Assembly: GCF_900108515.1 (NCBI RefSeq)
Contig: NZ_FNWW01000003.1
Coordinates: forward strand, 124,001 to 188,000
Direction of reading: 5' to 3'
Length of the DNA: 64,000 nucleotides
Source: Halobacillus karajensis
Lineage (GTDB): Bacteria; Bacillota; Bacilli; Bacillales; Halobacillaceae
Below are positions 17,719-29,160 of this stretch, one piece after another. Made by a program: the position numbers and the translations under genes. Positions within the stretch are counted from its first letter, which is position 1. Each line of letters opens with the position of its first letter. The notes below the pieces were generated by a model. The model was not told the DNA's origin, searched no databases, and saw nothing but the letters and a program-made list of their open reading frames with translations.

Positions 17719-18807
<1,089 letters not shown>

Positions 18808-27160: not shown

Positions 27161-27248
27161 TGATTATCATTAAAATGACTGGCGATGACCTTTTTGTGGG
27201 CTAAAAAGGCCTTCTGCATCATATAGTAGGAAGAGTGGAATTCATTAG

Positions 27249-27259
27249 TATGTCACAAT
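27249..27259. promoter_or_regulatory. Possible upstream CcpN half-match
   Basis: TATGTCACAAT matches the CcpN consensus TRTGHYATAYW at nine of eleven positions and lies 48 bp before the perfect site. Two-site arrangements are usual for CcpN targets. Confidence 0.4.
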
Positions 27260-27283
27260 TTATAAAAAGATATACTTTTGGGC

Positions 27284-27312
27284 TTGATTTTTAGTTTATG
27301 TCATATTAAAAT
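27284..27312 (+). promoter_or_regulatory. SR1 promoter with overlapping CcpN operator
   Basis: -35 TTGATT (27284-27289), 17-nt spacer, -10 TAAAAT (27307-27312). The sequence TATGTCATATT at 27297-27307 fits the CcpN consensus TRTGHYATAYW at all positions and overlaps the spacer and -10, where a repressor would block transcription. CcpN repression of sr1 under glycolytic conditions is established in B. subtilis. Confidence 0.72.
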
Positions 27313-27355
27313 AAACATATACTGAAAGCGATTACAGGATAAGGAGTGGATATGA

Positions 27356-27469
27356 ATGGGTACAATCGTATGTCAAGACTGTCAGAAGGTAATCGAGCAC
27401 TACGAAAATGAAAAGGTCGCTACTCTCTACGGCACATGTCCAACTTGCAACAAACCAAAAGAGAAATAA
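27356..27469 (+). CDS. SR1P, GapA-binding small peptide
   Basis: A 37-residue peptide beginning MGTIVCQDC, with two CxxC motifs (Cys6/Cys9 and Cys28/Cys31) and a central Tyr-Glu-Asn-Glu-Lys and Leu-Tyr-Gly-Thr-Cys block, clearly of the SR1P family. In B. subtilis it binds GapA and stimulates its association with RNase J1, linking glycolysis and RNA decay; rnjA lies 14 kb away here. AAGGAGTGG at 27341-27349 places the ribosome. An out-of-frame ATG at 27352 is just before it. Too short for ordinary gene calling. Confidence 0.9.
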   Translation: MGTIVCQDCQKVIEHYENEKVATLYGTCPTCNKPKEK

Positions 27470-27510
27470 AAAGGTCGGGCTATTGATCGGGGACAAAAAA
27501 GAAGCATACA

Positions 27511-27546
27511 GAAAGAACCAGACGAGCGAGCGTCTGGTTCTTTCTA
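27511..27546. terminator. Shared terminator of SR1 and speA
   Basis: A perfect 14-bp stem GAAAGAACCAGACG / CGTCTGGTTCTTTC with a 6-nt loop lies between convergent SR1 and speA. Confidence 0.93.
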
Positions 27547-27567
27547 TTTGTTCAGGAGAACTTTCGT

Positions 27568-29037
27568 TTATTGAAAAGCCCGTTGTTCACGTATGACTTG
27601 AATCGTTTCTAGTGTATCGTCTTCTGGTCCCTGCACAGGGAGACCTGCCTCTACATTTTCCTCAATATAGTGAATATTTTCTTGTGTAATAATTTCACCT
27701 GGAATGAAAATGGGGATTCCAGGGGGGTAGACCATTACAAATTCAGCACTGATTCGACCGACGGCCTCTTTTAAGAAAACAGTTTCTGTAGTAGAGTAAA
27801 AAGCTTCCCTAGGAGATAAAGATAGCACAGGTATTTCCGGTACTTTCACAGGGATGTTCTCCAGTTCTTCTGTATCGCCTCGTTCTTCGGAAAGTTCTTC
27901 CAACGCCTTCACCAAAAGGTCGATCTGTTCTTGGCTGTCCCCTGGTGTAATAAGACACAGGATGTTGTATAAATCAGAGAGCTCGACTTCAATCTTATAA
28001 TTGTCCCTCAGCCATACCTCTACATCATAACCGGATAATCCAAGTTTTTTAACAGAAATGATAAGTTTCGTTGGATCGAAATCGATGGTAGCGGTACTTG
28101 TCAGCATTTCTATGCCCGGGCAATAGATGCCGGAAATTTGGTTAAGTCTGTGACGCGCTTCATCAGCCAACGAAAGAGTATTCTCCATTAATTCCCTTCC
28201 ATGAATGGCGAGGTGCCTTCGGGCTGCATCAAGACTCGCCAGCAAAATGTAAGAAGTCGAAGTCGTATGAAGCATGGAAAGAATGGACTGAACCCGCTCA
28301 TGGGAAACCAAGCCTTCCCTTAGATTCAATACGGAACTCTGAGTTAAGGACCCTCCGAGTTTATGGACACTCGTTGCAGCCATATCTGCACCTGCCTGCA
28401 TGGCCGAAAGGGGAAGACGCTTATGGAAATGGATATGCACGCCGTGCGCTTCATCGACCAGAACAGGAATATCAAAACGGTGAGAAATCCTCACGATTTC
28501 TTTTAAGTCACAAGAAATACCGAAATAAGTCGGGTTAATTACCAGTAACCCTTTAGCATCAGGATGAGCTTCACAAGCTTTCTTAACAGCCTCTGAAGTG
28601 ATTCCATGAGAAATCCCGAATCGATCATCCAATTCTGGGTGAATAAAAACAGGCTTCGCACCTGAGAAAATAATGGCAGTCGTCACAGACTTATGAATAT
28701 TTCTCGGAACAATGATTTTATCACCAGGATGACAGACACTCATAATCATTGTCATAATCGCACCTGAAGTCCCTTGAACAGAGAAAAAGGTATAATCCGC
28801 GCCAAATGCCTCTGCTGCAAGGTCTTGCGCTTGTTTGATCATTCCTTGCGGGTGATGAAGGTCGTCAAGGGGTTCAATATTAATCAAGTCAATGGACAAA
28901 GCGTTTTCACCGATGAATGAGCGGAATTCCTCATCCATTCCTTTGCCGCTTTTATGTCCTGGGATATGAAAAGGAACAGGATTTTGATCTCTATGTTTTT
29001 GTAACCCTGTAAACAAGGGGGTTTCGTGTTGGTTCAT
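27568..29037 (-). CDS. speA: Arginine/lysine/ornithine decarboxylase family, SpeA type
   Basis: PLP enzyme of fold type I (Orn/Lys/Arg decarboxylase major domain), 489 residues, against 490 for B. subtilis SpeA. The PLP-binding lysine is in SVHKLGGSLTQSS near residues 220-232. DEAHGVH near 190 holds the PLP aspartate, and a C-terminal small domain follows. It should convert arginine to agmatine, the first step of putrescine/spermidine synthesis. The ATG at 29037 has GAGGTGG 8 bases before it; the GTG at 29049 touches the ribosome site. Position beside SR1, as in B. subtilis, supports SpeA over the YaaO paralog. Confidence 0.88.
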   Translation of the reverse strand: MNQHETPLFTGLQKHRDQNPVPFHIPGHKSGKGMDEEFRSFIGENALSIDLINIEPLDDLHHPQGMIKQAQDLAAEAFGADYTFFSVQGTSGAIMTMIMSVCHPGDKIIVPRNIHKSVTTAIIFSGAKPVFIHPELDDRFGISHGITSEAVKKACEAHPDAKGLLVINPTYFGISCDLKEIVRISHRFDIPVLVDEAHGVHIHFHKRLPLSAMQAGADMAATSVHKLGGSLTQSSVLNLREGLVSHERVQSILSMLHTTSTSYILLASLDAARRHLAIHGRELMENTLSLADEARHRLNQISGIYCPGIEMLTSTATIDFDPTKLIISVKKLGLSGYDVEVWLRDNYKIEVELSDLYNILCLITPGDSQEQIDLLVKALEELSEERGDTEELENIPVKVPEIPVLSLSPREAFYSTTETVFLKEAVGRISAEFVMVYPPGIPIFIPGEIITQENIHYIEENVEAGLPVQGPEDDTLETIQVIREQRAFQ

Positions 29038-29160
29038 TCGTGTTTCCACCTCTTTAAATTAGAAAAGCAAATGAATTATAGCAGGTTCCTTTCTAACTGG
29101 CTAGTCTTTTGTGTATCCTTTTTCTAATCATGATAAAATGAATGAAAGGGAGGGATGCAA

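Follow-up and report, generated by a model that had tools for sequence, protein, structure and literature searches.

SR1 is among the few dual-function RNAs of Gram-positive bacteria that have been studied in detail. A 64,000-nucleotide stretch of Halobacillus DNA, here called the window, contains a short intergenic locus that a first-pass annotation, made from the letters alone, read as an SR1/SR1P gene with a CcpN operator. The locus raises the questions of whether it is the known gene in a Halobacillus species, and how the regulatory sites at its promoter compare with those described for Bacillus subtilis. In the SR1 literature passages at hand, including those of PMC8464778, PMC8152036 and PMC8501984, the genus goes unnamed as an SR1 host; in the available part of PMC10989752, SR1P is named solely in a reference list, and a search for Halobacillus together with CcpN found no paper.

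The covariance model for SR1, RF02376 (antisense_SR1), and the SR1P profile, PF13790, both pass their cut-offs at this locus (Table 1). The covariance score is barely above its threshold, and the match has many non-standard pairs in its 5' helix. The RNA fold z-score of -2.26 speaks for the gene. The 37-codon frame described in the first-pass annotation is present, with its MGTIVCQDC start and two CxxC pairs. It is conserved as a protein-coding frame, since its variable sites distribute as 12, 7 and 33 over the first, second and third codon positions (first 34 codons of 33 Halobacillus-group genes, 31 of them distinct). SR1 of Bacillus subtilis likewise gives a full-length covariance match and an SR1P profile match, although its peptide has 39 residues rather than 37; both RNAs have a terminator hairpin, different in sequence. 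With both models passing, CcpN encoded in the genome and the sites conserved, the reading as an SR1/SR1P locus with a CcpN operator is supported. We are highly confident that this is the known SR1/SR1P gene in a Halobacillus species, a judgement made jointly with the account of its control and product given below. The gene itself is mostly one already known, and its kind was correctly spotted, as the present results confirm.

Table 1. Features of the SR1/SR1P locus and the CcpN-type site at ccpN (window positions unless a contig is named).
Feature	Position	Strand	Basis or remark
Distal CcpN-type site TGTGACATACT, inverted	27247-27257	-	exact match; centre 48 bp upstream of proximal site
Half-site GATATACT	27269-27276	+	where other Bacillales have a full CcpN site adjoining the -35 box
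-35 box TTGATT	27284-27289	+	promoter hexamers alone not above chance
Proximal CcpN-type site TATGTCATATT	27297-27307	+	exact match; promoter spacer
-10 box TAAAAT	27307-27312	+	columns average 0.97
SR1 RNA	27313-27547	+	RF02376 45.4 bits, cut-off 45, model positions 1-210 of 210; Rfam extent
cre box TGAAAGCGATTACA, predicted CcpA site	27323-27336	+	just downstream of predicted transcription start
Shine-Dalgarno AAGGAG	27341-27346	+	sequence
SR1P, 37 aa	27356-27469	+	PF13790 66.1 bits, cut-off 26
Terminator hairpin	27510-27545	+	15 bp stem, 6-nt loop; also terminator-like on the other strand, for the convergent gene
SpeA-like Orn/Lys/Arg decarboxylase, convergent	27568-29049	-	PF01276 372 bits; adjoins SR1P in relatives
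CcpN-type site at ccpN	own genome C23:227224-227234 (L065:1453-1463)		exact match; one site, right behind TATAAT

SR1P is widespread in this part of the bacterial tree. All 44 family genomes have a PF13790 match, and across the order 325 of the 397 genomes sampled have one, representing 118 of 135 genera. The gene is followed by a convergent decarboxylase, as at other SR1 genes, that of B. subtilis among them. When loci were fetched with the decarboxylase as query, SR1P occurred in the flank of 68 of the best 80 of 546 (50 recognized by pattern and 18 by profile). Within the family, the C-terminus of the decarboxylase lies behind SR1P in 34 of 40 parsed loci; of the remaining six, four belong to group g5, one has a differing longest frame and one lies at a contig end. 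In the four g5 genomes, the stretch fetched around SR1P showed no sign of the conserved decarboxylase. Among the best 80 of 546 matches, which may omit very near genomes, the top identity of the decarboxylase is 87% in Halobacillus sp. Nhm2S1, followed by 80% in H. halophilus and 79% in H. locisalis, with H. campisalis, Thalassobacillus devorans and H. massiliensis at 75% each.

The promoter that had been proposed is present as TTGATT, a spacer of 17 nucleotides, and TAAAAT. Taken by themselves these hexamers are at chance level, one being found where shuffled sequences lead us to expect 1.2, and the transcription start near 27319 is a prediction only. The terminator stem, which the first-pass annotation put at 14 bp, has 15 pairs, and its T-tail is poor (ATTTGTTC). 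The motif GCATGC in the stem is common to several SR1 terminators of the Bacillus group, while Halobacillaceae terminators vary freely between species.

Matches to the CcpN consensus TRTGHYATAYW, used here as the first-pass annotation supplied it, occur twice at this promoter. The proximal site is exact, as claimed, and lies in the spacer between the -35 and -10 boxes, overlapping the latter by one base. A second site had been called weaker and placed 48 bp upstream. The distance holds, centre to centre, but read on the minus strand the site matches exactly, and its value was underestimated; neither the cre box nor the lineage-specific layout described below was noticed in that annotation. One match to the 11-mer proves little, because the pattern is common: the window contains three where 1.22 are expected, and the genome contains 85, compared with 70 copies of the reversed pattern. 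With enrichment so slight, genome-wide counts were set aside as evidence for CcpN. For two sites in the 234-bp intergenic stretch, the Poisson probability is about 1e-5, and both sites are conserved in relatives. The SR1 promoter carries two exact, conserved consensus matches as predicted CcpN sites. Between them, the full 11-mer around the half-site (27266-27276, centre 27270, offset -31 from the proximal site) has two mismatches.

The arrangement of these sites was compared between the Halobacillus group, made up of the genus itself (g1) and g3, and 42 loci from other Bacillales. The latter set is what remains of 50 loci with SR1P recognized by pattern once eight named Halobacillaceae (L126-L133) are taken out; the 18 later profile finds lie outside it. 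Positions are measured from the proximal site, with anchors set by script and not individually checked, except that of L085, which was moved by hand to -55; counts are without the four g5 genomes, which have no proximal anchor. All 33 Halobacillus-group loci have the distal site at -46 to -49 within one mismatch, 29 of them exactly, and in inverted orientation, against one of 42 in the other Bacillales. The other Bacillales instead have a site within one mismatch at -30 to -34 in 39 of 42 loci (31 exact), a place where the Halobacillus group has no exact site in 33 loci and a one-mismatch site in seven. The proximal site is found within one mismatch in 32 of the 33. What stands at -31 in the group is a nearly invariant half-site, GTTATACT, with a mean column conservation that rounds to 1.00 over 30 distinct promoters; the copy in the window, GATATACT, is the one that deviates.

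In B. subtilis, CcpN binds directly upstream of the -35 box and in the spacer, according to the portion of PMC8464778 available, and these positions correspond to the common Bacillales layout. The spacer site is shared with Halobacillus. The upstream site differs, standing at -48 and inverted in Halobacillus, where the half-site alone adjoins the -35 box. Other groups of the family vary. The Thalassobacillus group (g6) keeps the common layout in five of five loci within one mismatch, four exactly. Groups g2 and g4 are represented by one genome each. That of g2 carries sites in both places, exact at -30 to -34 and one mismatch off at -46 to -49; that of g4 lacks a site at -46 to -49, and its site at -30 to -34 has one mismatch. 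The four g5 genomes (L040, L042, L043, L045; 2.6-3.2 Mb) keep SR1P and CcpN and have distal-like and half sites, but a clear proximal site is not seen; CcpN control is therefore not universal in the family. The new element is that, judged by their sequences, the CcpN and CcpA sites at the Halobacillus SR1 promoter appear to be arranged in a lineage-specific way.

The distal inverted site might be no more than an inherited leftover, with repression exerted by the proximal site alone. Its carriers are all related, and its columns exceed those of the gaps on conservation by a modest amount (0.89 against 0.79 and 0.83). Neutral columns do drift here, however, since the promoter spacer drops to 0.72 while the half-site columns stay at 1.00, and a similar site recurs at ccpN itself, in 17 of 18 loci. 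We find it unlikely that the distal site is such a relic, and read it as a second predicted CcpN site.

The proposed regulators are encoded in the genome. CcpN scores 347.7 bits against a cut-off of 260 for equivalog model NF053704, and it is above cut-off in 44 of 44 family genomes; CcpA scores 505 bits against 442 for TIGR01481. The gene preceding ccpN looks like glyS, a putative assignment, and a gene for a PPDK regulator follows ccpN. Thirty PF03618 loci of the genus were sorted into 18 ccpN loci and 12 others. In 17 of the former, the CcpN-type site is exact and stands just behind TATAAT, and 11 of the latter have at least one CcpN-type site before the gene; the reversed pattern is absent from the same 30 stretches. 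The position of the site makes autoregulation of ccpN likely. The first ATG of the ccpN frame is located inside the CcpN-type site, so translation may in fact begin at a codon further on.

Elsewhere in the genome, exact 11-mers precede gapB (two) and pckA (one), and two exact CcpN-type sites (L018; C6:154155-154196) precede another PPDK-regulator gene, which is followed by ppdK, an order checked for this genome alone. Sites are therefore present at all three members of the CcpN regulon of B. subtilis: gapB, pckA and sr1. In Lactobacillales, the predicted CcpN targets given in the accessible part of PMC3616900 are ppdK, ccpN and fbp, and the Halobacillus sites at the ppdK operon and ccpN match these predictions. 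Sites of both the B. subtilis set and the Lactobacillales set are present in Halobacillus. At gapB (L008), a cre-like sequence, AAAAGCGCTTGC, was noticed by eye some 70 bp before the start of the gene, immediately ahead of its pair of CcpN sites.

The cre box, the palindromic binding sequence of CcpA, provides a further element at the SR1 promoter. TGAAAGCGATTACA is the only exact match to the palindromic consensus in the window, where 0.09 are expected. In all 22 genomes of the genus it lies at +5 of the predicted transcript with no mismatch. Over the family, each of the 44 genomes has a cre box within one mismatch (34 exact), starting between +5 and +7, compared to 0.8 loci expected in shuffles, summed over six groups; for this search, a point 60 bases before the start codon was chosen by hand as the g5 anchor. 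Among the 42 other Bacillales, one locus has an exact match and nine have a match within one mismatch, with 0.70 expected in shuffles. A further 23, at two mismatches, show the core ARCGNWWWCA in the same orientation, and ten lack it, as read by eye and uncontrolled. With this site at the promoter and CcpA encoded in the genome, SR1 is a predicted member of the CcpA regulon. For B. subtilis, CcpA binding is reported about 260 bp upstream in the section of PMC8464778 at hand, whereas the cre box of Halobacillus SR1 is at about +5. With one mismatch allowed, 27323-27336 is the sole cre match between window positions 18,740 and 32,932, and none lies some 260 bp upstream.

The columns of the cre block exceed their flanks in conservation (36 distinct sequences from 40 family loci, g5 not included). 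This block might be conserved as a structure at the 5' end of the RNA and not as a CcpA site. Its CGAUUAC can pair with GUAAUCG within the SR1P frame, 22 of 40 relatives keep all seven pairs intact, and in the relative L088 one of the pairs shows a double change. The same helix is broken at two other positions in L088, 18 of the 40 relatives have one or more broken pairs, and the TGAAA part of the block, which is equally conserved, falls outside the helix altogether. An RNA structure as the cause of conservation seems improbable to us, and we keep to the reading as a predicted CcpA site.

Whether the second function of SR1, pairing with ahrC mRNA, extends to Halobacillus is less clear. In B. 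subtilis, the contact between SR1 and ahrC starts at the terminator arm, as described in the part of PMC8464778 at hand, and pairing is stated to be conserved in the corresponding part of PMC8501984. The Halobacillus transcript could instead be an mRNA for SR1P only, lacking the antisense function on ahrC. Pairing was scored from short helices with opening costs, comparing cognate with swapped partners in 29 of 30 Halobacillaceae (G019, with a misplaced ahrC frame, was omitted). Cognate pairs are no better than swapped ones (p=0.92), and the pair from this genome ranks 10 of 29. The longest complement between terminator and ahrC equals the control, at 6.93 against 6.85 (30 genomes), and the script-picked terminator arms vary widely, even among species of one genus. 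All three results speak for a transcript serving as mRNA only, but 26 other Bacillales give no signal either (p=0.48; 6.88 against 6.99). The pairing test lacks power because this comparison set fails too. In the relative G034, a strong helix is predicted with the ribosome-binding region of ahrC, rank 1 of 29, which speaks for pairing, as does the earlier statement of conservation. Cruder whole-length duplex energies gave p=0.89 for the 29 Halobacillaceae and p=0.07 for the 26 others; they produced giant non-physical duplexes and were rejected. Loss of the antisense function is a tentative reading, to which we give somewhat less than an even chance.

For the SR1/SR1P gene under CcpN and CcpA control, we infer the following scheme. 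A sigma-A promoter would give an RNA of about 230 nucleotides, translated into SR1P. In the presence of glucose, CcpN would repress from the spacer site and the distal site, and CcpA would add repression from the cre box at about +5 to +18. In the absence of glucose, SR1 RNA and SR1P would be produced, and by analogy with B. subtilis, SR1P would bind GapA and favour RNase J1 activity. This account as a whole, including the step from SR1P to GapA, we hold to be very probable.

Two proposals about the history of the switch are judged together, and we consider the chances evenly balanced. The first is that the Halobacillus sr1 switch has been rebuilt: the operator adjacent to the -35 box would have decayed, leaving the half-site, and been replaced by an inverted one 17 bp further out, while the start-proximal cre box would serve direct repression by CcpA. 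The second is that CcpA control at the SR1 start site predates the reported upstream cre and is more widespread, as is suggested by the cre-like core similarly placed in many other Bacillales SR1 genes. The rearranged operator would offer natural variants for studying how CcpN cooperativity depends on the spacing and orientation of its sites, and the start-proximal cre box may be a natural case of direct CcpA action at the start of sr1.
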